Assembly (NCBI GenBank): GCA_022829145.1
Contig: CM040746.1
Location: forward strand, 6,069,184 to 6,133,183
Direction: 5' to 3'
Length of the DNA stretch: 64,000 nucleotides
Source of the DNA: Albula goreensis
Taxonomy: Eukaryota; Chordata; Actinopteri; Albuliformes; Albulidae
Below are positions 12,614 through 63,550 of this stretch, in pieces. Under the pieces are notes generated by a model. The model did no database searches. It worked only from the letters and a program-made list of their open reading frames with translations, and was not told the origin of the DNA. The position numbers and the translations under genes are program-made. Every line of letters starts with the position of its first letter. Position 1 is the first letter of the stretch.

Positions 12614-15600
12614 TCAGTCGCAGTGGTTCCTGTACTTCTCCAGGCGCTCGCGCTCGGCCTCATCCAGCAGGTAGGTGTCGATGAGCGAAAAGAGCTCCTC
12701 CGAGGTGGTGGGGTTTATGATACGCTCCCGATCCACTCCGCGCTTGTCCAGCAGCACCATGGAGAAGTACGCTTGGGAAATCCTCAAGGCCTTCCTGCAA
12801 GACACCACACAGGAACACACACACAAACGAATTTACCACAGTGTTACACTTTAACTGACTACCCCGCCAACAATCAATCCAGTGCTCTCTAAGAAGTAAT
12901 ATTATTTTTTTAATCATTACATTGCATTATATTAAAGGCATTTGTTAGACACTCCTATCCACAGCGACTTACAAGGCAAAAAAATCAAATCAAAGTGGCG
13001 TGTTCATTTTTAAATTGTTTTACACTGTGATGATAAGAAGAGTCAAGTTTTAGCTTTTATGACACTGCACTCCATTACACTAAATTACCTACACTACACT
13101 GCAGTGATTTAGCAGTTGCCTTTACCCAGAGTGGCTTGGAGTATTTGACAGGACATTACAGTAATATGACATGAGACAATACCATAGCACCTGACACTGA
13201 CTGCACATGAAGTCACAGGTCACAGTGTTCCTGCTGTATAGGTAGTTACCTCAGCCCCTCCATGACATCAATGTCCAGCAGTTTGCCGTTGATGCGGCCC
13301 ACCTCTTTAGGGGGCAAACCCAGTAGCTCCACCACCGTCACCTGCCTCAGGTGCAGGCCACACTCAGCGGTCTGTGCAACAGACAGTACTGACAGTCAAA
13401 CCCCCAGTTTTACATTACACTACAGACAGCACTGACAGTCAAACCCCAGTTTTACATTACACTACAGACAGTACTGACAGTCAAACCCCCAGTTTTACAT
13501 TACACTACAGACAGTACTGACAGTCAAACCCCCATTTTTACATTACACTGTAGACAGGACTGACAGTCAAAGTCCCAGTTTTACATTACACTACAGACTA
13601 CTGACAGTCAAAGCCCCAGTTTTACAGTACACTACAGACAGTACTGACAGTCAAACCCCAGGCTTCACAGGAGACTACATCCCAGAGCCCTGACAGAATC
13701 ACGCTGGAACAGACTGGCTTTGTACGACGCACAAAACTGACGTCAGCATCCAAGAAAGCGCCAGCTCTGTGCGACGGACTGGGCTGAGCACGGTGCCCCG
13801 CCCCCGCTGCTGGAGGACAGAGCAGCCGCTGTAATCCCACACGCCTGACGGCAGCATCCACAGGCATGGCTGCCCTCTCCCAGCCCCTCCCATTTCCCCC
13901 TCTGTCACCAATGGAAGAGCCCGGCTCTGGCCAGTCAGGTGAGAGCAGGTAAAGTAGGCAGACCTGCAGCATCATCTCCTGGAGTTTGTAGTTCTGGTCA
14001 TCAGTGCTGGGTGTGAAAATGATGAGCAGCCGCCTCTTCCCAGAGAATTGGTCGAGCAGGGCCGATGAGGTCCTCACATCAGTGGTTATCTCCATCGCTG
14101 AAAACACACACGGCACACACTCCTCACGTCAGAGCTTATCTCCCTCACATGCATCAAGTCTATGCTTGTGTGTCAAGTGTATTGATGTTGTATGGTATAT
14201 ATTTTTCATACATGTTTTTGGTTATGGTACAGAGATGTGAAAAAGAATGGCCCTGTGAAGAAGGGCTATGCAAATAAAATGGGATTGCACTGAGCATACT
14301 CACCTGCACATGTTGGGGGAACCCCGGACCAGGTGCGGTCAAACTGACACATGGTGGTGGGGTTTCCCCTCCTTTCGTACCCGGGGTCACATCGGAACTC
14401 GCATTCGGCCCCGTAGATGTTCCCCTCCACTGAGCAGGTGAAGGATCCATAAAGTGGCTCTTTCAGAGGGGGGCACCTTATCACACACACAGAGCACATG
14501 ACTTAGCGCACTGTATCACACACAGAGGGCACATGACTTAGCGCACTGTATCACACACAGAGAGCACATGACTTAGCGCACTGTATCACACAGGATCACT
14601 GGAAGTACCTTTCCACCCCACTCCTCCTAAAATGTATGAATGTACATGTCGTAGGCTTTGTTTGTGCATTATGTGCTTGACATGGTTGTGGGATGTTCCA
14701 AAAAATATTTGTTCTCCTCTCAGGAGACAAGGTGTCTATCATCAGATTTTACCACAGAGTACAGAATCTTTGATACTCACAACTTGTGGCCCAAAATAAG
14801 TGTAGCACTGTTTAACATTTAAACTCTTGACTTGTCTCCGGACTCAAATTGGCCTGGATGAAAGTGCGGTCGGTGCTGCACAGATCTCCCTCTGGATCTA
14901 CTCCAGCTAAACTGTGCCGGTCACGGCTCTAGCGCCATCACTGCCCTGCCCTTCTGCAGCCTCACTATGAGTTTGAGGCTCTCCAGCTATGGCTACAGCC
15001 CTCAAGGTTTTCACTGTTGACCATTCCATAACCAATAAACACAACTTTGAAACATCCATGGAGCAAGATCAAGCACAGGTGAAAAATACATATATGGGTA
15101 TACAAGTAGAGGGAGTCCCCAGCTTACGAAAATATTAATAATTGGTTCCTGAAGGTCATTTTCGTAAGTCCATCTTTTCTCTTGCAGACACTTCATATCA
15201 TTCACCAAGATGAACCCCTCCCCTTCTATCAGTCTCAGTAGCTCCTATTTTCATGCACGTATGTTTAATATAAATAAGAATAAATTCAAAGACTGATATA
15301 TTTATGTACACTGTATAGTACTGTATAGGAAAACCATTTTTTTCTTATTTAGGAGGTTAGTTTAAATTTTACAAGCGTAAATTTCACAATTTAGGGAAAG
15401 CTGGAGTGCACAGTTGCCATCTGTTGTGGACCATGTGGTTGGTGCATGGTTTGAATAAGTAAATTGTTTTTTTTTTCCTGAAAATCATTTTTTCGTATCT
15501 GCAGATGTCCGTACCTCGAATCTTTCCCTAAAATAGGGGCTAAGTGTGAAAAATAATAAAATGTAAATCGTGGTTAATAAATCACACACAAAATGTAAAA

Positions 15601-18600
15601 GCACTGAGTTTGACAGCGCTCTGAAGCCTTACCCTCAACTCGGACGATGAACTTGCACAGCGCCTTGTTCCTGGCCAGATCATAGACCTTGTATCGGATT
15701 ACGTGAATGCCTTCAGAAAATTCTGAGCCTGAAGGCTCACCTATACGAGTTAAACTGTGCCACAGGAGAAAGTAAGAACAATTAAGCCCTGACCAACACA
15801 AAAAAGAGAAAGAATAAAGGTACAAGTCTTTAAAACAAAGACAGAAATCCTATGTACTCTGTTGGAGTTGCATCAGCGGTATCCTTGACGACAGGAGGGT
15901 CCCATGACACCTTGGCAGTCAGTTTGCCGGGCTCTGCGACTCTCACTCGAGACAAGGGGCATTTTATTTTGGGAGGATCACGATCTGGAACAACACAGTT
16001 TTGCACAAAGATTTTCATCTGAACTCTTTTCCTGTTTCTTTCTCCTTCTTCAAAAAAAAGAAAAAAACAAACAAACACATACACCCACACACAAAAACCA
16101 CATCAAGACATCAGGAATTTTGGCTTGGCAGAACATAAATTTCCTTCCTTCCCTCAGCAAAGCATGCTGCTAATTTGTGAATCTGATCGCAAGCTCATCT
16201 GAAGGGGAACTTTGAAGATGAAAAATGGAAAAATGTCAGTCCTGGAAGAGGGCCAAAGATACAAAGGGAAATGACACTGCAGACAGTGGGGAGGTAGGGG
16301 CGTGGGGGGGTGGGGGTCTCAGTAATATAACAGGGGCCTACAGAGGACTGGCCTTCCGTCCATTATTAAACATTTACATGAAGGCAGCTCAGCAGACACC
16401 ACGATACAGAGCTTTCACTTTTACACACGTTCCCCAGAGCAGCCCACCTTTGAACTGGAGAGCCATGGAGCATGCTTGTTTTTCCACTGTTACTCAGAAA
16501 TGAATTACACAATGAAATCTTTGTTAATACAGTTAACTTCTGGTTTCTTGGGACTGTTATTTTAGTTTGGAAGCACAAACCAGTGCACACTGCAGCCCCA
16601 CAGAACCATGGTCAGCCCACCCTCCACTGGTAGTTGGTACGGCTGGATATTCTCAGAAGAAATTCAGGTGAGGTACCATGCTCAGGAGTACAGCAGTAGT
16701 GCCCTACCTGGGATCTGAACCTGCAACCTCTGAGTTACAGGACTGAGCCCCATGACTCAATTACCTTCACCACTGTCAATCTGCAACTGGCTTAGGCAGG
16801 ACCTTTGAACCTGGTTTACCTGCACAGGTGGGTTCTATGCCGTTCCACCTCCCCCCTGGCATGCAGGTGCGGCTGCGGACCCCCTCCAGCTGGTACCCTG
16901 GGTCGCAGGTGAAGTCGCACCTCGAGTCTGCCACCACCCCGTTGGTGCAGGTGTAGGTGCCATGCAGCGTAAGAGGCAAGACGCGACAGCGCACCTCTAG
17001 CACACCACACACAAGAGAACATAAGAAAGATAAGCACTTAGCCAGGTCTGCCATTTCCTCACAGTCAGCAGAGGACCCAGCAATGAGTCAAGCACTGGAC
17101 ATGGTCACCCTAGAGTCTCTGCCTCAACTGCAAGGGACTCTCGCCCTACTGAAATATATGACATTCAAGCTTTTACCAGATGCTGTGTTCCAGAGAGACC
17201 AGTGCAACTCTACATGTGGAAGGTATTCCGCTACAGCTGGGTATTTACTGAAGCGTCTCGCTCAAGAGTGCAGGGGTGGTGTGCCCAAAATCCTTATTCA
17301 TTACATTCTGCTGCCCTGCTACCACAGAGGACAGTCACAGCGAGAGGATTTTAATCACACCAGTGTCACTGATGTGGGGGTAATTGTCATCTGGTTAGCA
17401 GAACAGCTTTTGTCCTGAATTCAGTTGGTTAAACCAGCTTTGATCTTCATCAGTCACATGTGTCCCTGAGACATGGGGTATTTTCCACACCTCTTTTCGC
17501 GAACATAATCAAAAGAGACTCAGAGGCATAAGAACTGATCAGAGGAAAGCCAGTGCGGAAGCATACTTTGGTAATAAAGACCAGGATTAGTAGTTTGGCT
17601 GACTAGCGTGTTTTAGCGCTGAGGCCGAAAGCCTGAGCACACCTGGTGTTTTTGACGTTAGGGTCAGGGTTAGCGGCTGTCCTGGATGTACTCACGGCGG
17701 CAGTATGATGTCCCAGACCACCTCCGGTTGGGCATGCACATCAGGGAGGTGCGGCCGAGCAACCGGTAGCCACGATCGCAGCTCATCTCACACCGCGTCC
17801 CCAGAGTGTTGTGGTAGTTCCCTCCACGGGGGAGAAGCAGGTCACCTCCCCATGGGGCAGCCTCAGGGTGTTGCACCAGCGTGGGGCTGCCACCCAAACA
17901 CACAGGACAGGCGTCAGCGGGACCCCAATACACAGGACAGGCGTCAGCGGGACCCCAACACACAGGACAGGCATCAACACATTTTGAAAGTTATGCAACA
18001 ATGATATGGAGACTATTTTAAAGAATAACTGCAGAAATATTTGTCTGAACACTCATATTTGTGGGATATTAATGTCAATGCAACATCAATTTTATGGCTG
18101 TAAGGAATTTAGCCATTGGAGCCAGGGACACATTCCAAACTCATGAAATTACAGAGATAAACACTGCAGCAGTTAACCTCAGAGATATGCCCATTCTGAC
18201 TACTCTGAATATTAACAGAGCCAGAAACTATACATGGACCAATCAGCATATTTCCTGTCTGAGGGATGATAACATCACCAACTGGGAGTTGGTCAGGTGG
18301 ATGTAAGAAATGACTGGGGACAGATCCATGCTGTGCCCCCTCCCCATCAATGCAAGGCCCCTCCATTCTGTGCCCCCTCCACACAAGTCCCCTCCCCATC
18401 CACACAAAGCCCCTCCCCATCTACACAGGGCCCCTCCCATCCACACAAGGCCCCTCCCCATCCACACAGGGCCCATCCCCATCCAAGCAGGCCCCTCCCC
18501 ATCCACACAGGGCCCCTCCCCATCCACACAAGGGCCCCGCCCCATTCGCCATCACAGGGTCCCTCCCCATCCACACAAGACCCCTCCCCATCCACACAAG

Positions 18601-24470: not shown

Positions 24471-27400
24471 ATGACTTCTCCTTCCAGAAGGCTGCAGACT
24501 AAGCCTGTGATAACATGCCTTAAAACTTTTCTCATTTCTTACAGTCTCATATTTTGGGTAAGTTGCGTGCAAATAATAGAGATGCAAGCTGTGGGACAGA
24601 AAACAATGGGATAGTGGCGCTGACAGCAACATATCTGGCTTTTCAGTGCAGGGAAACAATGAATTGACTGGAATAGCCAGCTGATTTGACTTTATAATAA
24701 ATGTTGCTTTTGTTAATTAGCCAACTGTCTTGGTTTTTCACCAGTTGCTATATTAAATCAACTACTGCGGCTTTATTGAAGAGATATCCCATTCTTTTAG
24801 CAATGTTTAATCGTTGAAATGTTTCTAATATTTTATTTGTTAGCCTGCAGGTATAGTTAATGTTATCTGACTTAAGTTCTCGCCAAGTACCGAAACATTC
24901 TAGCTAGCTAACATATTAGCTGTAACCATATCAGTCCTGCTATCTTAGCTATCGGTAGCTATACTTGTAAGGACACAGATTGTCTGCTAGCTAGCATTTA
25001 TTTTGTGTTATTTTTGTGCTAGGCAAGTGACTAAAGTTAGCCAAGTCGCTAACATTTTTTTTTTAATTTTCAAAAAGTCTTTCAGGCATATAGCAAGACT
25101 CATTTACTTACCCGTTTCAATAATTTACAGTATTAAAGAAATACATCACACAAAGTACCCAGTGCCCGCATTAGCAATCTAGTTAACCATTATCTTACCA
25201 CTATAAATGTTAACAAAGTGCTTGTTGACCACTTTTTATCTTGGTTGATGAATGCTGTAGACTGAACAAAAGCATCACAGTCGTGGCTAGCTGGCTGTTT
25301 TCTTTTTTGCTAACACGAACTTTCAATAGCCTTGCTACGTGAGTCTACAGGCGTAGCTAACGTTAGTGAAGTGATATCGCTGATCAGTACATTTTAAGGC
25401 AAAAGAAGGACTGATCGCTTATTCAGCGTTAAGTATTTGGACTCTTGATTGTTGAAAAATTGGGGTCACGGCATATGTATTAAGAAAAGTTTTCTTCACT
25501 TGATTTACCGTAGCTTGGTAAAATCAGCTTTGATACCAATGAAATAATAGTGCGTAGACCACGCACTAAACAAAGGGCACAAAGACTCCATTGCGTACTT
25601 TGCCTGTGGATTGTCTGACGCGGAAACAATGCACTGTTAAAAAGATTTTAAGCCGGTATCTCTCACAAAATCACATTCAAATGAAAAGCGTTTTCTCAGA
25701 GATCAAAGTCCGAAGTGGCACTCTTTATCACTGTGATTTATTGCTATATGGTAGCTAGGTGACTTGTTCTTTCTTGTGCCAGATGGACTGTCGAAAACTC
25801 ATGCTAATGACAGAAAGCTCGGATTCACTGTGCTGTGCAAACAGCGATAAAACATGGACAAAGAGAAGGATTCTTAATAACGGGTCGCTATTGTTGTTGT
25901 TGTTGTTGATGATGATAATGATGTCACTATTGTTGTTGTACTCAGTGGGGATGTTCCGTCACTGGCTACAGAGTCGGAGTTTGGGTCATTAGTATGGAAT
26001 ATTACAACCAAATGATTTGAAGTTTAGTCTCTGTATAGGTTTTATAGCACTTGATGATGAAGGGCAAGTCCATTCCACCCGTCATAGAATCGACCGGGGA
26101 CATGCACAGCAGCCATCTTCCATTACAACTCTCTCAAAACACAAGGGCAGTGTGATGAAACTTTGCCAACAGCTGCTTTAAACGAAAATGTGCGGTGTGA
26201 AACCTCATGTTGCAAAGCGTTGTAACTATGGAAAGTGGGAGGGCCAACGTGCGCGCAGGGTGTCACTCGCTCCTGGTTATACCAAAGCTTCCACGACCAC
26301 AAAACTACAAAAAGCACACTTTAGAGGGGGGTGCATTAAACTATATCCGAACGTTTTCACCATTCACCTGAACTTAACATCACATCAAGTCGTCATCGGT
26401 GACCGTCTGAGGCAGTGCGCTGGGTGATGAGGTGTTACAGATGTTAACCGTTAATCCGCTCATCTGCTGAATTATTCATTGTGTGCGGTCCCAAGGTAAT
26501 TAAGAGGCAGGTATTTTTCACCTCAGGCGTGTTGTACAGCAGTGGGTATGTAACAAAAAAGATGAGGACACACTAGGCAGCCAGAATGTTTTAAAACTGG
26601 TCATTTCTTTCTTGTGATTTTGTAGCCACTCCTCTTAGGCCCTTTGAGTAAGTATTCCTTTCAAATGAAAGAAATTCCCAGTGTTTTGATAATGCCATAG
26701 GTAGGTATGACAGGCAGGAGAGGTAGACCTGTGTAGCCCTGCATTGGCAGTGCGGTGCATAACCTGGTCCTGCCTGTTTCCAGTTAACAGGGGTCATCTT
26801 GCTGGCGGTTGGCGTTTGGGGAAAGGTGAGCCTGGAGGCTTACTTCTCCCTGGCCTTGGACAAAAGCACCAACGCACCCTATGTTCTCATCGGCACCGGC
26901 GCCTTCATCGTGATCTTCGGCCTGTTCGGCTGCTTCGCCACGTGCCGTGGCAGCCCCTGGATGCTGAAGCTGGTAAGCACAGTACAGTGTGGGGTACTGC
27001 AGGCTGAAGCTGGTAAGCACAGGGCAGTGTGGGGTACTGCCGGCTGAAGCTGGTAAGCACAGGGCAGTGTGGGGTACTGCAGGCTGAAGCTGGTGAGCAC
27101 AGGGCAGTGTGGGGTACTGCAGGCTGAAGCTGGTGAGCACAGGGCAGTGTGGGGTACTGCCGGCTGAAGCTGGTGAGCACAGGGCAGTGTGCGGTACTGC
27201 AGGCTGAAGCTGGTAAGCACAGGGCAATGTGGGGTACTGCAGGCTGAAGCTGGTAAGCACAGGGCAATGTTGGGGTACTGCAGGCTGAAGCTGGTAAGCA
27301 CAGGGCAGTGTGGGGTACTGCCAGCTGAATCTGGTGAGCTAAGGGCAGTGTGGGGTACTGCTGGCTGAAGCTGGTGAGCTAAGGGCAGTGTGGAGTACTG

Positions 27401-30400
27401 ACAGCTGAAGCTGGTGAGCTAAGGGCAGTGTGGGGGTACTGCCGGCTGAAGGTGGTGAGCACAGGGCAGTGTGGGGCACTGCAGGTTGAAGCTGGTAAGC
27501 ACAGGGCAGTGTGGGGTACTGCAGGCTGAAGCTGGTGAACACAGGGCAGTGTGGGGTACTGCAGGCTGAAGCTGGTAAGCACAGGGCAGTGTGGGGTACT
27601 GTAGGCTGAAGCTGGTAAGCACAGGGCAGTGTGGGGTAATGCAGGCTGAAGCTGGTGAGCTAAGGGCAGTGTGGGGTACTGCCGGCTGAAGCTGGTGAGC
27701 ACAGGGCAGTGTGGGGTACTGCAGGCTGAAGCTGGTGAACACAGGGCAGTGTGGGGTACTGCAGGCTGAAGCTGGTAAGCACAGGGGAGTGTGGGGTACT
27801 GCAGGCTGAAGCTGGTGAACACAGGGCAGTGTGGGGTACTGCAGGCTGAAGCTGGTAAGCACAGGGCAGTGTGGGGTACTGCCAGCTGAAGCTGGTGAGC
27901 TAAGGGCAGTGTGGGGTACTGCCGGCTGAAGCTGGTGAGCACAGGGCAGTGTGGGGTACTGCCGGCTGAAGCTGCTGAACACAGGGCAGTGTGGGGTACT
28001 GCAGGCTGAAGCTGGTAAGCACAGGGCAGTGTGGGGTACTGCAGGCTGAAGCTGGTAAGCACAGGGCAGTGTGGGGTACTGCCAGCTGAAGCTGGTGAGC
28101 TAAGGGCAGTGTGGGGTACTGCAGGCTGAAGCTGGTGAGCAGTGTGGGGTACAGGCTGAAGCTGGTAAGCTCAGGGCAGTGTGGGGTACTGCAGGCTGAA
28201 GCTGGTAAGCACAGGGCAGTGTGGGGTACTGCAGGCTGAAGCTGGTAAGCACAGGGCAGTGTGGGGTACTGCCAGCTGAAGCTGGTAAGCACGGGGCAGT
28301 GTGGGGGTCGTACAGGTTGAAGCTGGTGAACACAAGGCAGTGTGGGGTACTGCAGGCTGAAGCTGGTAAGCACAGGGCAGTGTGGGGTACTGCAGGCTGA
28401 AGCTGGTGAGCACAGGGCAGTGTGGGGTACTGCCGGCTGAAGCTGGTAAGCACAGGGCAGTGTGGGGTACTGCAGGCTGAAGCTGGTAAGCACAGGACAG
28501 TGTGGGGTCGTACAGGTTGAAGCTGGTGAGCGCAGGACAGTGTGAGGTACTGCCAGCTGAAGCTAGTATGTGTTGTTTTTTCTTGATGCACTTGCTTGCA
28601 TAGATTACACGGATACAAATCAGAGCTGCTTCAACTCGTCGGCTAATCGATTAGTTGGTTGAAAGAAAATTAATCAGCAACTATTTTGATAATTTATTAA
28701 TTGCTTTTGTCATTTTTGAAGCAAAGTGACAACAAACGGAAAATACAACAAAAGCTTTGTAAAAAGGCATAACACTGGAATCTACAACATCCTTTTTTTC
28801 TTACCAGCTTACATTATTAATTAGTTCTATGTTCTCAAATGTCAGAATTTGCTGCTTTTCTTGGTCTTGCATTATAGTAAATTGAATGTTTTCGGGTTTT
28901 GGACTGTTGGTCAGACAAAACAAGACATTTAATGACATCACCTTGTGCTCTAGGAAACTGAACATTTTTCACTGTTTTGTGATGTTTCATGCAAGATTAA
29001 TCGATTTATCGAGAAAATAATCGGCAGATTAATCGATAATGAAAATAGTTATTAGTTGCAGGCCTCATACAAATGCAGCCCCCATGCTATCTGCACATCC
29101 CGTGCATGCTTGGAACCTACACATCCTCACATTACATTTGGAGTGTGTCCCTACAGTCCTGTCAGTGCTCATCTTCAGCTGGGGTGCCAGTAGTTGCAGA
29201 GGAGAGAGTTATAAGGTGTCCAATGTCTGATGGTGGATGTGTATTTTGCCCCCTCTCCCCAGTATGCTATGTTTCTGGCTCTGGTGTTCCTGGCTGAGCT
29301 CGTGGCAGGCATCTCCGGCTTCCTGTTCAGACATGAGGTACGCAGCACATATCTTTACAGCGTCTGTCTCATATACAGCGTGAACTGTGTGTTTTCTCTA
29401 TAGCCAGTATAACTCAACATCAGTATTTCACATGAATTCCAGATGTAAAGCTGAGCTTGTCCTCTTTCTTTTTAGATAAAGGCAATATTAAACAACACCT
29501 ACAGCAATGCCATCGAGCACTTTGATGGTGCCAGCCCCCAAAGCCAAGCAGTGGACACCATCCAGAGAACTGTAAGTGATAATTTTGTACACTGTGGGAC
29601 CTGGTATATTTGCTTCTGAAATATGCCCCCTGGTGTAATACTGTCAATGTAGTCAAACTTGTTGATTGAAATACAGGTTAAAAACATAGATACACTCTGA
29701 AGAGAACTTCAAGGGAGGAGGAATGTGCTAAGTGTGTCTACCAGTTGGTAAGATTGTCTGTGTGCATTTCTGAACCATTCTCACTCATTTATATCTACTC
29801 TCCTTTATGTATCCATATATATCATCTTTCCCCAAGTAAATTGGTAGTTTTTCTGTGTAAGTGCAAAGCACCCAAGGGCAATGGCTATCCAAGTCTTTTA
29901 AAAAAAAAGAACTACAGTAATACAAGTAAAGGTGGAAAGTTCTGTAATGGCCAAGAGCTGCATTATACCTGCAGTCTCACTGAATCCACCGTCTGTCCCT
30001 GCCCTTCTCTGCAAACACTGTTGATCCCAGGTCAGTTCATAACTGAATGACAATTAATTTTTACTAGGTTGCAGGTACACTTCTCCAAAAACTGGGAGAA
30101 AACAAAATACTTGTCATCATTACGGATGAGTTAGACGAGTATTCAAATACACGCACGGCATGACATTCGACTAGCATACCAGGGTCACATTTATTTGTTT
30201 GTTTGTTTATAGATTGTTAGAAACTATCTTTGGTGTGAAATGCACAGCTGTCTGTTTTCGCAGCATGGCTAACATAACTTTGTTCATGTTGGATGTAGGG
30301 TAGATATAAGGTAGACTGGTTAAACTCACAGGTGAATAAATTACCCCTGGATTATGGACCTGCAGCTTTGGTTCCTCATTGATGATGATGTTGATGATGG

Positions 30401-32476
30401 TGTTGATGATGATGATGTTCACCATGCTCCACTCAGCTTGAGTGCTGCGGGTCTGAGAGCTACAAGGACTGGGGGAAGACAGACTACTTCAAGACCAATG
30501 GCATCCCAGCCAGCTGCTGCAAGAAGGCCAACACCTGCCCCCCCGATGACCTGAAAGACATGGAGAAGGCGGCCGATGAGGTGTACCCCAAGGTAAGGGC
30601 ACCTCCAGAGGCAGGTTATGTTATTATATTCTGTTCATGGTGTGGTACGGTGTCTGTGTTTATTGTTGTCATTCACCCCCTCCTCCATTTGCTTCTGTCT
30701 GTTTCCAGGGCTGTTTCTCCCAGGTAACTGCTAAGATGGAGGCCAACCTTGGAATTATTGCTGGGATCTCCTTTGGAATAGCCTTCTTCCAGGTAATGTG
30801 TATCACAGAGTCCTATAGGGTGCAACGTGATCACATGGTACTCTGCATCAATGATACGTTGCTTTGTTTTGTGGGGTTGTGAATGAAAGGTTAGCATGCC
30901 GGTTCCACGTCAGTGCAAATCTCTTGAAACAAAGATTTTTAATCCCAGTGGGACTTTTCCGGTTTAATAAACGTTAAATGAAATAAAAATTGTATGTGGC
31001 CCTAACAAATAAACAGTTAAATCATTAGATAAAAGAAAAATTAAGACATAGGAAAGGGATACATAAGCGTCAAGCCATGGAGGCTGGGTTATCTGTGCCC
31101 AGTGCTGCTGGGGGAATGGTTGTGAGGCTGGGTTATTTGTGTGTGTGAATGCAGGACAGTGAAATGGCTGGGTTATTTGCTAATTCAGGACAGTGAATTG
31201 GCTGGGTTATATGTGAATGCAGGACAGTGAATTGGCTGGGTTATATGCGAATACAGGACAGTGAATTGGCTGGGTTATCTGTAAATGCAGGACATTGAAT
31301 TGGCTGGGTTATATGCGAGTGCAGGACAGTAAATTGGCTGGGTTATATGTGAATTCAGGACAGTGTATTGGCTGGGTTATATATAATTCAGGACAGTGAA
31401 TTGGCTGGGTTATATGTGAATGCAGGACAGTGAATTGGCTGGGTTATATGCGAATGCAGGACAGTGAATTGGCTGGGTTATATGTGAATGCAGGACAGTG
31501 AATTGGCTGGGTTATATGCGAATGCAGGACAGTGAATTGGCTGGGTTATATGTGAATGCAGGACAGTGAATTGGCTGGGTTATATGTGAATGCAGGACAG
31601 TGAATTGGCTGGGTTATCTGCGAATGCAGGACAGTGAATTGGCTGGGTTATATGTGAATGCAGGACAGTGAATTGGCTGGGTTATCCGTGAATGCAGGAC
31701 AGTGAATTGGCTGGGTTATATGCAAGTGCAGGACAGTGAATTGGCTGGGTTATTTGCGAATTCAGGACAGTGAGATGGCAGGACAGTGAATTGGCTGGGT
31801 TATATGTGAATGCAGGACAGTGAATTGGCTGGGTTATATGCGAATACAGGACAGTGAATTGGCTGGGTTATCTGTAAATGCAGGACATTGAATTGGCTGG
31901 GTTATATGCGAGTGCAGGACAGTAAATTGGCTGGGTTATATGTGAATTCAGGACAGTGTATTGGCTGGGTTATATGCGAATTCAGGACAGTGAATTGGCT
32001 GGGTTATATGCAAATTGCAGGAATGCAGTGAATTGGCTGGGTTATATGCTGATATGCAGGACAGTGAATTGGCTGGGTTATATGTGAATGCAGGACAGTG
32101 AATTGGCTGGGTTATCTGTGAATGCAGGACAGTGAATTGGCTGGGTTATCTGCGAATGCAGGACAGTGAATTGGCTGGGTTATATGTGAATGCAGGACAG
32201 TGAATTGGCTGGGTTATATGCAATGCAGGACAGTGAATTGGCTGGGTTATATGTGAATGCAGGACAGTGAATTGGCTGGGTTATATGCGAATGCAGGACA
32301 GCGTGTGAGAGCAGCACAAGTGGAGCAGAAGAATGTGTTTGCATGGAGCATGCATGTGTTTTTCCTTACAGCAGAAATGTCTGAAACGAGCTTCATTTCC
32401 TCCTCAGCTCATCGGAGTCTTCCTGGCCTGCTGTCTGTCGCGGTACATCACAAACAACCAGTATGAGATGGTGTAG
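24471..32476 (+). CDS. tspan6: Tetraspanin 6/7-type protein, called tetraspanin-6
   Basis: Four-pass membrane protein of tetraspanin microdomains. Seven phase-0 exons: 24471-24557, 26784-26972, 29263-29337, 29476-29571, 30437-30592, 30709-30792, 32408-32476, giving 251 aa. TM1 is about residues 16-42, TM2 about 60-82, TM3 about 93-112 and TM4 about 214-240. The large extracellular loop has the CCG motif (152-154), SCC, a further Cys and GCF (202-204). Juxtamembrane cysteines (79, 83) could be palmitoylated. The protein ends NNQYEMV, whose YEMV fits a YxxPhi sorting signal. The N-terminus (TSPSRRLQTKPVITC), GKVSLEAYFSL and YKDW favour TSPAN6; STNAPYVLIGTG, GSPWMLKL and ACCLSR recall TSPAN7. 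The srpx2 neighbour decides for tspan6; TSPAN7 remains possible. The ATG is in good context and is followed by a GTAAGT donor after 29 codons. Confidence 0.93.
24558..26783 (+). other. tspan6: tspan6 intron 1
   Basis: 2.2 kb of AT-rich sequence, GTAAGT to TTTCCAG. Contains a short run of TTG/ATG triplets near 25900; otherwise nothing recognised. Confidence 0.6.
26963..28565. repeat. 40-bp minisatellite containing a splice donor, about 40 copies
   Basis: Unit CAGGCTGAAGCTGGTAAGCA plus CAGGGCAGTGTGGGGTACTG. The first copy is the end of tspan6 exon 2 itself (CTGAAGCTG, then GTAAGC). Later copies carry GTAAGC, GTGAGC or GTGAAC at the same place. Long minus-strand ORFs (Tyr/Gln/Leu-rich) are artefacts of the repeat. 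Confidence 0.97.
28621..29066. mobile_element. Non-autonomous hAT-like DNA transposon with 8-bp target duplication
   Basis: 446 bases flanked by exact direct repeats ATACAAAT (28613-28620 and 29067-29074). The ends are imperfect inverted repeats: CAGAGCTGCTTCAACT on the left, reverse complement of the right GAGGCCTGCAACTAATAA. Inside are the ATTAATCGATTTATCGAG-type AT-rich motifs of a common teleost repeat. No transposase. An 8-bp duplication and CAG-type end fit the hAT superfamily. Confidence 0.8.
30925..30992 (+). repeat. Second copy of the dispersed tail seen near 5.0 kb
   Basis: GATTTTTAATCCCAGTGGGA followed by TTAATAAACGTTAAATG resembles the tail at 4975-5030. It lies in the last tspan6 intron. 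Confidence 0.45.
31079..32301. repeat. 34-bp minisatellite, about 35 copies, last tspan6 intron
   Basis: Unit GCTGGGTTATATGTGAATGC plus AGGACAGTGAATTG, very homogeneous in the middle, with local higher-order duplication (31180-31370 resembles 31790-31980). It ends about 100 bases before exon 7. Confidence 0.97.
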
Positions 32477-42397: not shown

Positions 42398-42477
42398 GTA
42401 AGGGATGTGATTTCAATTATTTTTATCACTCATGATTTGCTATTCTTATCATCATGTGTTGCAACAGCATTGGCTTG

Positions 42478-43210
42478 TGAGATGCAGGTTTGACCCAGCA
42501 TGGAGCTCTGTGAGCTGCAGGTTTGACCCAGCATGGAGCTCTGTGAGGTACAGGTTTGACCCAGCATGGATCTGTGTGAGCTGCAGATTTGACCCAGCAT
42601 TGAGCTATGTGAGGTACAGGTTTGACCCAGTATGGATCTGTGTGAGATGCAGGTTTGACCCAGCATGGAGCTCTGTGAGCTGCAGGTTTGACCCAGCATG
42701 GAGCTCTGTGAGCTGCAGCTTTGACCCAGCATGGAGCAGTGTGAGGTACAGGTTTGACCCAGCATGGATCTGTGTGAGCTGCAGATTTGACCCAGCATTG
42801 AGCTATGTGAGGTACAGGTTTGACCCAGTATGGATCTGTGTGAGGTGCAGGTTTGACCCAGCATGGAATTAAGTGAGTTGCAGGTTTGTCCCAGCATGGA
42901 GCTGAGTGAGTTTCAGGTTTGACCCAGCATGGAGCTGAGTGAGATGCAGGTTTGACCCAGCATGGAGCTGAGTGAGTTGCAGGTTTGTCCCAGCATGGAG
43001 CTGAGTGAGTTTCAGGTTTGACCCAGCATGGAGCTGAGTGAGTTTCAGGTTTGACCCAGCATGGAGCTGAGTGAGTTGCAGGTTTGACCCAGCATGGAGC
43101 TGTGTGACCTGCAGGTTTGACCCAGCATGGAGCTGAGTGAGTTGCAGGTTTGACCCAGCATGGAGCTGAGTGAGTTTCAGGTTTGACCCAGCATGGAGCT
43201 GTATGAGGTT
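42478..43210. repeat. 33-bp minisatellite, about 22 copies
   Basis: Unit GAGCTGAGTGAGTTGCAGGT plus TTGACCCAGCATG. Because 33 is a multiple of three, long ORFs stay open on both strands (for example 42426-43265 minus). Confidence 0.97.
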
Positions 43211-57824: not shown

Positions 57825-60800
57825 CTGTAAAAAAAAAAAAAAAAAAAGCAAAGATCCAATGATATGTACTTTTGTCCCTCAGATTTTCCATTCCCACTTT
57901 ATCAATCCCAACACAACAACCTTCAACCAAATACTCATAAGGGAGCAACTATTCCTCTAATTCTCACATAGCACAAGCCCTTTCTTCCCATATGGCAGAC
58001 ATGTCAGCCATTACATACTGCCTACGCCATCCTGGAGCACAAAGTTACATGCTAATTTAGCTACTTCTGTGCACTTGCTGATACATGGTCGGCCAGGAGT
58101 GACTGCTACAGAGTAGTAAAACTGATGGTGCAACAGGCTCGGCTCTTGCCTTTTCCCATTGAGGTGACTGCGGGGTGAATCATTAACAGCAGCCACATAG
58201 TATTGCTTATATTTTTATTCCATCACAAGATAGACACAGGGACCTTTTTATCTTTCCCCTTTTACCAATTTAGAGAGCTCTGTTGTTGTCAGAGGCGATA
58301 CAGCATTCATGTACAGAGAACACAAATTTTCACTGGAAACACCTCCATTTCATTTCAGGACTGCACGCACAAGCCACCTCTCTGCCTCCAATCATGTCGC
58401 CAAAATACAAGCAGGTTACCCATGATGCTGTGCTCACCCCTGTGACAGTGACACCTGGATGTAGTAGCAGGGTAGGAGAGGCTGTGAGGAAAACTCAAAC
58501 ACGAAGCAGTCCTTCTCTGTGCTCTTCTCCCTGATCTCCTCCTCTTCCTGCTCTTCTGGGAACGAGAGCAGGAAGTCCCAGCATGCTTTCTGTCCGGTCT
58601 CTGAAAAACAGACATTAGCCATGATCTCAAACAGGGCAAACTCTCCACTTCAAACTAAACTCTTATCCAACCTCTACAAAAACGACGTTTTGTAGAACTT
58701 CTACATAAAAAACAGGATTTGTTATAGCTTCTGTGTAGTACATAGTTTTTGTTACAGCCATGTACACAAAAGTAACGCTAAGTCACATCTTTACTCCCAG
58801 TTGGATTTTGCATCCATGTGGTAATATTTTCTTAATTTTTTGCACATTGTGTTGATAGTTTGGGGCATTTGTTCAAATGCTGAAAAATTATTTTTCTGTG
58901 TTGTGCATACATTGTGAATACTACTTTGAAGTTCAGAATAAAACAGTGAAAATACTACAAACAGCACACAAAGTATGCGATTTTAGGCACAGGTATAGTT
59001 GTACTACTGTGAATAAGGTCTTAGTTTGACACCGGTTCTCCGAAAGATCAGCATTTCCTTAGGACGTGATTACCACTCCCCCTAGTGGATATTTTGTCCA
59101 AGTACAACAAATCATTAACCACAAATGGCCATCAAAATGGACACTGAGTGCTAGGCGATACACCCTTACTGACCTGTAGCTGTCACAAAAATAAAAAAAA
59201 ACGTAGTTCTTTTAAAATGCCTAAAGTTAGAGGAACAAAGAAAGACAATGTTAGTTTTAAGGTGACATGAAGTATGACGTATCACTAGTCTCTTACCAAA
59301 CACCGCACTGCTGTAAAAATCCCAGTGGACATCGAGATCCTGGTCCGTCCGTCCGTCCAAATCAGCAAAGTACTCTGCAATCAGAACCACCTCAACTTGA
59401 TCAAAAGCTTCCATGATGGAGCAAATCTAATCAAGAGACACTGGAGTGTCTAAAATGTGCCCTCATTAATCCAGTCAGGGTGGGGCTACACTGTGAGTGC
59501 TGTGTTTGAGCTCTGTGTGCGGCGCTGTGTTTGAGCTCTGTGTGCGGCGCTGTGTGTGAGCTCTGTGTGCGGTGCTGGGTATAAGCGGTGTGACCAGCCC
59601 TTACCTTTGAGGAAGGTTTTCATGCTTTGGCTCTGAGCCAGCTTGATGGCGGTCTGTCCAGAGTAGGTGGCCAGGTGGGGTGTGCGGCCTCTGTGTGTGG
59701 TGCATGAGTCAGCAGCATCCATGTGTTTGAGCTCTGTGTGCGGCGCTGTGTTTGAGCGGCCAGGCTGTCGCTGGCCACAGCATCGTGAATCGGCCTGCAA
59801 GGGAACCGCAATCTTATACAGTCATGTGTGACTCTAACATTCCTCACGCACCGGGCTTGAGTCCACATCAGCTCAAACTGACTTTAAAAATATGATTAGC
59901 TAATAGATGAGCCACTCAGTGCTTTTTTTTTTTTTTATTGCCAGCAGACCAATGGTGAAGCAAAAATGGTGTGCAGGTCTCAACATTTAACTCAACAGGT
60001 CACTACAGCTAAAACGTCTGACTCAGGTTTCCTGGTTGCTGATTTTAAGGTGTCTACATACTCAACAGTGTTTACAAAAAGTGTTTACATACTCAAAACC
60101 ATCTACACACGCATCACTCAACATAATGCTTTGATCAAGCCCAACCAGCCAAATTTCATGCAACTCTTGATTTGCTACAAAACTGAATAAATAATTTATA
60201 TATAATTTATAACCAATTCTGATATGATACATGACCCATGATCCGGACCACAGTCTGATAGCTGCGTATGGCTGCATTAAACCAACCCCAAAACAGCTGT
60301 TTTTTGTGATGATCTACAAATGACAGGGCGCTGCATTCTTTAAATCCTGTAATCACGTTATGCCCGTTCAGTTTATTAATTCTTGTTTAAACTAAATGAT
60401 CATCGTGTTATACCTGTTTAGTGAATAGCAAAGAAACTGACCAACTTAAGTGGCTTATGCTGTGTTTTTCAGGCAGAAAGTCTGGATCAGTTGTTGACTC
60501 TGGAGAGCAGGTGATGTTGTGGCTGGACCCAAGCCCCTGGTCCCCCTGGTCCCCCCCGGTCCCCCAATCCCCGCCGGTCACCCCAGTCCCCCTGGTCCCC
60601 CTGGTGCCCCCACGGGTGGCCCCAGTCGTTCCCGGCCGCAAGACTAACACCTGCTCCCCAAACGAACGTGCTGCTGTGCGAGCCGCCCTCAAGCCCAGGC
60701 TTCCTCTTACTGTGCGAATGGATTCAGTGAATGCCCGAGCCAAATGAACTAGGAGCTGTGCCGACAGCTCTGAGGGCAAGGCACAGCTATCTAACCTCTG

Positions 60801-63550
60801 TATGCACCTTCAGCTGTATTCACCTTTAGATGAATAACCCTATACATGAATATATATGTGCAGCAGGCCTGGTAAAAGACTTAAGACAAACAAGTCTGCC
60901 AGCTTTATGTGGTTCAGTATCTTTTAGCCAATCACATCAACCCAGTGAAGGCAGCGCTCCAAACTAGTGATGCAAACAAACTGTACAGAGAGCAGGCATG
61001 TGTGAGTTACATCACACTTCCCCAAACAGCCTGGGAATGGGACCTCAGTCTCAGCTACCCAGCCCTTTAAGCCCCTCACCACTGTTCAGGCTGCTGGCTG
61101 GTCTATATTTAGACATTTACTTATCTGAATAAACTTTTACAGCTACTTTGTAGAATTCAGTTATTTTATACAGCTTGACATTTACTGAAGCAGTTCAGGC
61201 TGGGTACTGCCACATCTGGGATCTGAGTCTGCAACCTCTGAGTTTCTATCCCAGTGCTCTGATCCCTACACTACATTTGCTTCCTGCTCTCCTGCCCACT
61301 GATCCCTTAGAGGCGCATGCTGGCTGATCTCCTGGGCTGATCCCTTTGAGGCACATGCTGGCTGATCTCCTGGGCTGATCCCTTTGAGGCACATGCTGGC
61401 TGATCTCCTGGGCTGATCCCTTTGAGGCACATGCTGGCTGATCTCCTGGGCTGATCCCTTAGAGGCACATGCTGGCTGATCTCCTGAGCTTATCCCTTAG
61501 AGGCGCATGCTGGCTGATTTGCTGGGCTGATCCAACACTCACCGTGTGCCGTCCTGGGCGCTGCAGTTGACGTGGGCTCCGTGCTCCAGCAGCACCTGCA
61601 CAATGTGGGTCCAGCCCCTGGCACAAGCCTCATGGAGTGCTGTGTACCCAGCGTTGTCACGGCGATTCACCTCCCGCTCGTCCTTTTCCAAACAATACAG
61701 GACCACCTCCTGTGGGACCAAGGGTTGGGGGGGAATGTGGCAAAGTCAAGTCATTGGATGTGCAAGACTATTCACTGCCATCAGCTCACACGTGACAAAT
61801 ATCCAGCATCTAGGCTTGTAGCAGACACTCTTATCCAGGACTTACCAAATACATCCAATAGATTTAAAAAAGAGACAACATAAGGTTACTAGCAGCACAA
61901 CCAACAGCAACGGTTATTTTATCAACCTACAAGGAATTAAGGAGTTATGACGGGTGCATGGAAAAACAGAAAATGTTTGAGGACACTGTATTGTGATTGA
62001 CACTGTAGATATTAATGTAAAAGTCTCCCATTCTTAGATAGATTTACAGAAGTGCATAAAATAGGGCTGGCAGAGACCTGATGTGATAACCCATGACTAT
62101 CTCAACTGACAGCTGCAGTTATCACATGACCCCACATCATAATGAGCCCTGGGGGAGGAGCCATGAGACTGGGAATACAGTGCTCCATACTCAGACCAGG
62201 AGAAGGACCCAGACTTCATGGTTTGTTCATAGGGATGCAGTTTAAATCAGCTGAGTTTGTAAATTCCACCCCTGGCCTGGGACAGTGCAGGGAGGTAATG
62301 TAGAACAAATGATGTAACTATGTTCACATGCTAACGAAGCAGAGCGGCCAATGAGCAGTCGTACAAATGGAGGAGCCGCAGATCTGTCGGCACCCCAGTC
62401 TACAGTGCGTGAGATGGGCGCAGGTGGAGAGGCGGAGTCATACCTGGTAGCCCAGTCTGGCGGCTCTTTGAAGCAGGGTCTCGCCGGCATTCTTATTCAC
62501 GATGAGGCGCCTAACCTCAGGGGGGACAGGCCGCCCAGGGGGGGAGTCGGGAACGCGGCCCCCCCTCCCACCCACCCCTGCACCGCCCCTCCTGCCCGTG
62601 GAGGGAGAGGGCAGGTCCCTGGGAGGGCAGATGGGATCTGGCGGCTTCTTCACCGGCGGGTTGCCTGCATCGATGACAGGGGTGGAACACTTTCCAGAGA
62701 CGCCACGCTTAGTCTTGAGCTGAATGAAAGAAAGAAAGATTTCCATTTCCAGGAGGTAACACTGCAAGGACAACAGACACGGGCTCACAGTCTGCACTCC
62801 GCGAGGGGAAAAAAAAAAAAAAAACATACACTGTACTAATTCTTTAGGCCACAGGAGGGCACTCAAACCATAGTTTTAATAATAAATACATTTAATTTGT
62901 GAAGTGCAATTCATTGCAAATTTCAAAGTTCCTATTTAGGCAAAATGGTAAGTTTATTGAGCACATGTAAAAAAAACTGCACCAATACATCACAGTATTC
63001 AGTCAGTAGAGCACTCAGTATATGAGGGAATATGGCACCCATCAGGGCCTGTTTCAATAAATTCTGTCAAAGGCTTGCTGCTCTAGTATCAGTTTCCCCT
63101 GCCCATGTCCTTTCCTTCTCCATAATGGGCCAAAAGACTAAACTGATCCTAGATCAGCACTTCAGAAGCAATTTCTGAAAGCGATATTTCTGAAAGCAAT
63201 AACATTTGTGTTCTGCTGGGAGTTACCTTTGCTAATTATGCTAACAAACGCCCTGTCCACTCTCACTTGCAACTTTTAGCGTCATGCACGCCCGTATTCT
63301 TGAAACAGGTATGACCCCCCTACCCCCCCACATACCTTCTGCTCCTCCTCCAGGTCACACAGGTGTTTACTTTTGAATTTCCTCTTGCCGGTGGGTTTGT
63401 CTGTGGGGGAGGAGGGCGCGTAGCCGAGTTCCGAGGCACGCGTGGCTCCCCCCGATCGGGTCAGCAGGGGCCTCCTGGGTGCCCCGTCCGGACTGGCGCC
63501 CCGACATGCCAAGGTTGCACTGAGCCGAGGGTACGACCCGGCCCTCTGAT
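57434..63550 (-). CDS. bcorl1: BCL6 corepressor-like 1, C-terminal part (5' end beyond the right edge)
   Basis: Nuclear corepressor of the non-canonical PRC1.1 Polycomb complex. Seven minus-strand exons: 63550-63336, 62719-62444, 61709-61543, 59794-59605, 59374-59297, 58600-58438, 57824-57434 (stop). First comes a basic stretch [13 protein letters not shown], then a proline-rich region, then three ankyrin repeats starting [20 protein letters not shown] and continuing [19 protein letters not shown] and [15 protein letters not shown] linker has WDFYSSAV. The PUFD domain that binds PCGF1 starts [11 protein letters not shown] and continues [17 protein letters not shown] and [14 protein letters not shown] and FLLSDVL favour BCORL1 over BCOR. 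All phases agree except in exon 59794-59605, which carries 44 surplus bases. After the PUFD core the protein runs on about 45 polar residues. Confidence 0.92.
59489..59578. repeat. 25-bp tandem repeat in the bcorl1 intron, 3-4 copies
   Basis: Unit GTTTGAGCTCTGTGTGCGGC plus GCTGT. It ends about 25 bases from the donor of exon 59794-59605, which contains the same unit. Confidence 0.93.
59605..59794 (-). CDS. bcorl1: bcorl1 ankyrin exon interrupted by satellite-like insertions
   Basis: The exon begins [13 protein letters not shown] and ends [20 protein letters not shown], both matching BCORL1, but the two ends lie in different frames. The family exon should be 146 bases; here it is 190. By comparison with the expected WLLLSHGADPTLA stretch, about 30 extra bases follow SLAA and about 14 extra bases follow the next CTGACTCAT. 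The first insert (plus strand about 59722-59754) nearly repeats the 25-bp unit of the intronic array at 59489-59578. As written, translation stops at 59620-59622. Splice sites at both ends are canonical. Confidence 0.85.
61085..61275 (-). repeat. Second copy of the SINE-like element
   Basis: Contains TTTACTTATCTGAATAAACT and then CTGGGATCTGAGTCTGCAAC with CTCTGAGTTTCTATCCCAG, matching the piece at 16650-16775, in a bcorl1 intron. Confidence 0.45.
61292..61530. repeat. 38-bp tandem repeat, about 6 copies, beside a bcorl1 donor
   Basis: Unit TGGCTGATCTCCTGGGCTGA plus TCCCTTTGAGGCACATGC. It stops 12 bases from the end of bcorl1 exon 61709-61543. Confidence 0.95.

Follow-up and report, generated by a model that had tools for sequence, protein, structure and literature searches.

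How is a splice donor chosen when it has been copied about 40 times in a row? The question is raised by the tspan7 gene of Albula goreensis, located in a 64,000-nucleotide stretch of contig CM040746.1 (the window), in which a 40-bp tandem array lies across the boundary between exon 2 and intron 2. This array belongs to the minisatellites that span an exon-intron boundary, and its copies carry the splice signal. As judged from the sequence, only the first donor of the series would preserve the protein, and the array is probably a bystander (probability about 0.82), with donor 1 dominant and a minor use of the next copies that would be sensitive to nonsense-mediated decay (NMD).

Tandem Repeats Finder described the array with a period of 40, 40.3 copies and 90% matches. 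Anchors placed on the exon-like bases gave 41 register points, separated by 40 bp in 36 cases, by 41 bp in three and by 30 bp in one, in agreement with an earlier sequence-only reading that the donor had been amplified around 40 times in tandem. The unit begins inside exon 2, as that reading held, but includes ten exonic bases (26963-26972) instead of nine, followed by 30 intronic bases; its consensus consists of the exonic part GCTGAAGCTG and the intronic part GTAAGCACAGGGCAGTGTGGGGTACTGCAG. Mean identity to the consensus was 94.6% over 39 aligned units (units with more than 3 gaps excluded), and units differed from one another by 4.5 positions on average (40 units), with no clear block copy. 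No strong lag pattern indicative of a higher-order structure appeared over 20 lags, the lowest shuffle fractions being 0.02 (lag 13) and 0.03 (lag 19). G runs were abundant (72 of GGG or longer); such runs act as intronic enhancers, which may be their role in this array.

GT was retained in 40 of the 41 copies. The most frequent donor 9-mers were CTGGTAAGC (20 copies), CTGGTGAGC (14) and CTGGTGAAC (4), whereas GTGGTGAGC, CTAGTATGT (in the final, partial copy) and CTGCTGAAC (GT lost) occurred once each. Duplex energies, computed with the U1 5' end, were around -8 kcal/mol at 35 of the 41 donors, donor 1 among them, and ranged from -5.1 to -10.0 at the five other tspan7 donors. GT sites with good U1 pairing amounted to 21.8 per kb in the array, whereas elsewhere in the window their density was 1.2 per kb on one strand and 1.1 on the other. 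Predicted RNA accessibility was low at all 41 donors (maximum 0.019; 0.004 at donor 1 and a median of 0.001 at the others), and an Rfam scan of the window returned no family at its gathering score. Fifteen arrays were listed in the window (period at least 10, at least 3 copies, at least 76 bp, overlapping rows merged), and one of the other 14 had a unit with comparable U1 energy (327-402, TGGGTGGGG, -9.0, minus strand). Copies of the 20-nt core of 37 junctions, drawn from three genes (srpx-, tspan7-, and bcor-like), were sought in the adjoining 2500 nt; with up to 5 mismatches, the tspan7 donor was the only junction copied (39 copies), and at 6 mismatches one further junction, the srpx-like acceptor at 13371, presented 3 copies.

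Splicing from any of donors 2-41 would lead to a product of 116 aa, through a frameshift for copy 2 and through the stop at 27045 for the others. Translation thus confirmed two earlier predictions, namely the shift of frame upon use of +40n donors and the position of the first in-frame stop. Since donors 2-41 all truncate the protein, none can replace donor 1, and a reduction of output is the most that the array could achieve. No evidence was found for the additional proposal that donor choice controls functional output, all 40 downstream donors truncating at this same length.

We propose that a tandem duplication of the exon 2/intron 2 boundary would have founded the minisatellite, and that its expansion to about 40 copies would then have occurred within intron 2. 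Exon 2, which has introns of 2226 nt upstream and 2290 nt downstream, would be recognised by exon definition; the copy 1 donor, being closest to the upstream acceptor, would be chosen, and the later donors would leave with the intron. A low-level leak into the next copies would yield +40n transcripts, with the frame shifted or stopped at 27045, which would be cleared by NMD. Dominance of donor 1 is predicted because of the long flanking introns and exon definition, and also because, in the passages of PMC9225289, choice between near-equal donors in long introns favoured the one closest to the acceptor across the exon, and in minigenes where two equal donors were combined with 365-nt introns only the upstream donor was used. 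The boundary minisatellites of amphioxus ("mirages"), reported in parts of PMC3087553 and PMC3902484 not to interfere with splicing, argue in the same direction. A minor leak is to be expected because two downstream repeat units of human IFI6 also serve as donors, giving three mRNAs (PMC4526556). Strong preference for the first donor, offered as an alternative in the sequence-only reading, is the best supported of its suggestions, given the minigenes (PMC9225289) and the amphioxus mirages (PMC3087553). Array length is expected to differ between individuals, and a benefit to the animal need not be assumed.

Several observations weigh against a bystander array with a dominant first donor. Considering all alternative-donor pairs, with strengths unmatched, about 60% favour the downstream site, the upstream preference arising at near-equal strengths (60%), according to passages of PMC9225289; moreover, the exclusive minigene result in these passages was obtained with two strong CAG/guaagu sites, whereas tspan7 presents CTG/guaagc and 41 sites. 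Human IFI6 shows that donors in later repeat units are usable (PMC4526556). In addition, the first 16 columns of the unit (10 exonic plus 6 donor bases) contained 6 variant types over 39 units, and the remaining 24 columns contained 23; this proportion (6/29) had p 0.006 against random columns, and these columns were the lowest of the 40 circular windows. A second alignment gave 6 vs. 21 variant types (6/27, p 0.014), and four of the five control arrays showed p values of 0.24, 0.33, 1.0, and 0.97. The low variability of the first 16 columns could mean some constraint. Nevertheless, the p value for low variability in the donor part was 0.20 when the window position was left free, and the remaining control array (31144-32301, in intron 6, with no good donors) was more uneven than the donor array (p 0.04). 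For these reasons selection on the donors was rejected as a candidate explanation and constraint is not claimed.

The same variability would fit a different role, that of a tuned off-switch in which donor competition directs some of the transcripts to NMD and array length sets the level of tspan7. The sequence would permit a choice between productive and unproductive donors, in the manner of a poison exon subject to NMD, as the 40 downstream donors lead to the 116-aa truncation with exons downstream; IFI6 provides a precedent for the use of downstream repeat donors (PMC4526556, in part), and the hint of reduced variability (p 0.006 and 0.014) points the same way. Such a switch is unlikely, however, considering that the exon-definition data (PMC9225289, passages) predict donor 1, that the amphioxus cases are said to splice normally (PMC3087553 and PMC3902484, in part), and that the hint vanishes once the window is free to move. 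An assembly artefact, the true array having one or a few units, has little probability: the units differ from one another, no block copy stands out clearly, and all phases of tspan7 itself are intact. On the other side, the frames next to two other arrays, at srpx-like exon E and at bcor-like exon 3, could not be reconciled, perhaps a sign of local sequence errors, and the exact copy number of the tspan7 array is uncertain.

Other explanations make use of the copied signals in different ways. The succession of TACTGCAG, GCTGAAGCTG and GTAAGC in the array was taken in the sequence-only reading as a potential source of 10-nt micro-exons, with TACTGCAG as an acceptor-like stretch. AG does end 26 of the 40 full units, just before the exon-like ten bases (last three bases: CAG 25, TAG 1, CCG 7, CCA 5, CTG 1, and ACA 1), but it is missing in the other 14, so that the acceptor-like stretch is present in some copies without being universal. 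The spacers measure only 30 nt, which is smaller than the usual vertebrate intron, and the candidate acceptors contained 6-8 pyrimidines out of 20 vs. 13-17 at the six authentic acceptors of tspan7; besides, a 10-nt insertion would shift the frame. Inclusion of micro-exons is thus very unlikely. As for the 35 good U1 sites gathered within 1.6 kb, they might act as decoys that sequester U1 or shield the intron from premature cleavage (telescripting). Both roles appear highly improbable: U1 is very abundant, which makes its sequestration implausible, and intron 2 holds no AATAAA or ATTAAA to be shielded.

A donor minisatellite in IFI6 (6-16) was reportedly described in 1995 by Turri, Cuin and Porter (Nucleic Acids Res 23:1854), to go by the title. 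Boundary minisatellites are already known, from amphioxus and from human IFI6, and the tspan7 array is a many-copy vertebrate member of this group. As in human IFI6 (PMC4526556), a minisatellite supplies multiple donors, the two genes being unrelated. The amphioxus mirages, in the passages describing them, share with the tspan7 array units placed across an exon-intron boundary, splice signals and a working gene; the units of amphioxus Adh3 measure 10-72 bp, a range that covers the 40 bp of tspan7, whereas those of the globin BflGb6 have 150-160 bp and 6 or 3 copies, in contrast with the roughly 40 unit copies in this vertebrate gene. The likeness to mirages is one of sequence: boundary span and GT in 40/41. 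The coding model of tspan7 is intact. Polymorphic intronic minisatellites have been reported in introns 1 and 3 of gilthead seabream GH, where, unlike in tspan7, the passages of PMC3045353 mention no copied splice site. Minisatellite expansion altered the exon/intron structure of human genes in segmental duplications (PMC2812944, in part), whereas tspan7 retains its intact seven-exon coding structure. No further cases of boundary minisatellites were present in the passages of PMC12783039, PMC2688266, PMC3151243, and PMC5861446. The tspan7 array constitutes a natural test of spliceosome choice among about 40 near-equal donors in series, and also of whether exon definition alone suffices.

The gene model comprised seven coding exons, in phase 0 at all junctions, and encoded a protein of 251 aa (Table 1), in which a tetraspanin domain was recognised (PF00335, E 2.8e-55; score 187.9 bits, cut-off 32.1). 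A search of PDB with this protein gave Tetraspanin-7 as top match (E 8.2e-111) followed by Tetraspanin-15 (3.5e-28); TSPAN6 was absent from all 11 PDB matches, so that this search alone cannot separate TSPAN7 from TSPAN6. Over the 251 residues, 162 were identical to human TSPAN7 and 151 to human TSPAN6, and the N-terminus was nearer TSPAN6. A domain search of 10 window proteins, 6 of them without match, identified as neighbours an srpx-like gene on the minus strand (DUF4174, E 6.3e-7, ORF 13625-14128), a mid1ip1-like gene (Spot_14 domain, 1.5e-43, at 38.1 kb on the plus strand), and a bcor-like gene (PUFD domain, 7.3e-33, at 57.4 kb on the minus strand). These neighbours agree with SRPX, MID1IP1 and BCOR, which surround TSPAN7 in this order at human Xp11.4. 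Because of the residue identity, the Tetraspanin-7 match and the Xp11.4-like neighbours, the gene is most likely tspan7, and not tspan6 as it had been named from the sequence alone.

Table 1. Coordinates (positions in the window) of the tspan7 gene, its 40-bp array and the donors and stop relevant to exon 2.
Feature	Position	Strand	Remarks
tspan7 coding exon 1	24471..24557	+	donor TGG/GTAAGT; gene model
tspan7 exon 2, 189 nt	26784..26972	+	last 10 bases are also the first ten of repeat copy 1
40-bp tandem array, 41 register points, across the exon 2/intron 2 boundary	26963..28568	+	Tandem Repeats Finder, register anchors
Donor 1, GTAAGC	26973..26978	+	sole one of 41 predicted to yield the 251-aa protein
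tspan7 intron 2, 2290 nt	26973..29262	+	array about 70% of length; without AATAAA/ATTAAA
Donor-like sites of copies 2-41 (40 sites)	27013..28571	+	GT in 39/40
First in-frame stop for exon 2 extended via donors 3 and later	27045..27047	+	
tspan7 exon 3	29263..29337	+	gene model
tspan7 exons 4-7	29476-29571, 30437-30592, 30709-30792, 32408-32476 (stop included)	+	gene model

Arrays also occurred near other junctions of the window, all on the minus strand. In the srpx-like gene, array 13379-13659 ended 7 nt before an acceptor and array 14479-14592 ended 2 nt before another, its units carrying GTGTGTGATACAG beside the real GTGTGTGATAAG; in the bcor-like gene, arrays 61299-61533 and 59499-59586 started 9 and 18 nt after donors, respectively. 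Altogether, 5 of 7 arrays in 18 mapped introns of the three genes lay within 20 nt of a junction or across it, as compared to 0.84 expected from random placement within the same introns (p 7e-5). With cut-offs of 5, 10, 30, and 50 nt the p values were between 1e-4 and 0.018. The proportion was 4/6 without the tspan7 array (p 8e-4), and 3/5 (p 0.002) when the array in a 178-nt intron was also removed. Adding two arrays excluded at first as too simple or of short period (30379-30417, with rows of period 3 and 12, and 60534-60610, of period 9) gave 6/9 vs. 0.92 expected (p 8e-6). Among these junctions, copies at 5 mismatches existed for the tspan7 donor alone. The pattern is post hoc, with a cut-off picked afterwards, and the srpx- and bcor-like junctions were placed by eye around tblastn matches to human proteins, those of srpx exon E (acceptor 14476, phase misfit) and bcor exon 3 (internal frame change) being approximate. 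Array coverage showed no junction excess (10-18% within 200 nt of junctions vs. 28% beyond), because two long arrays dominate it. The pattern is a lead and not a result. Preferential seeding of minisatellites at splice junctions in this genome, donors and acceptors alike, can be put forward tentatively and with considerable doubt; should it hold, the tspan7 array might, with the same reserve, represent the largest case within the window. A process of this kind would go on adding splice sites, from which new isoforms and introns could arise. Provided that the window-wide pattern holds, the origin of splice-site duplications and repeat-derived introns would be open to direct test in a vertebrate.

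Some additional features were observed around these junctions. Array 17892-17976 (minus) ended 5 nt before srpx exon A and was left uncounted, the far end of that intron being unmapped. The srpx-like exon E acceptor at 14476 (minus) is out of phase with donor 15633, possibly through a sequence error beside the array or a misplaced junction. The bcor-like ankyrin exon 59605-59794 (minus) contained pieces of the 25-bp repeat of its downstream intron, and its reading frame changed internally, for which a real change, a decayed copy or a sequence error are possible. The second large minisatellite of tspan7, 31144-32301 in intron 6 (34 bp x 33.5), lay 351 and 106 nt from the donor and the acceptor of that intron, respectively, without a good donor in its unit (best -3.8). 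Distant from the mapped exons, a 33-bp x 22.6 minisatellite at 42465-43207 had a unit with GTGAGT and GCAGGTTT.

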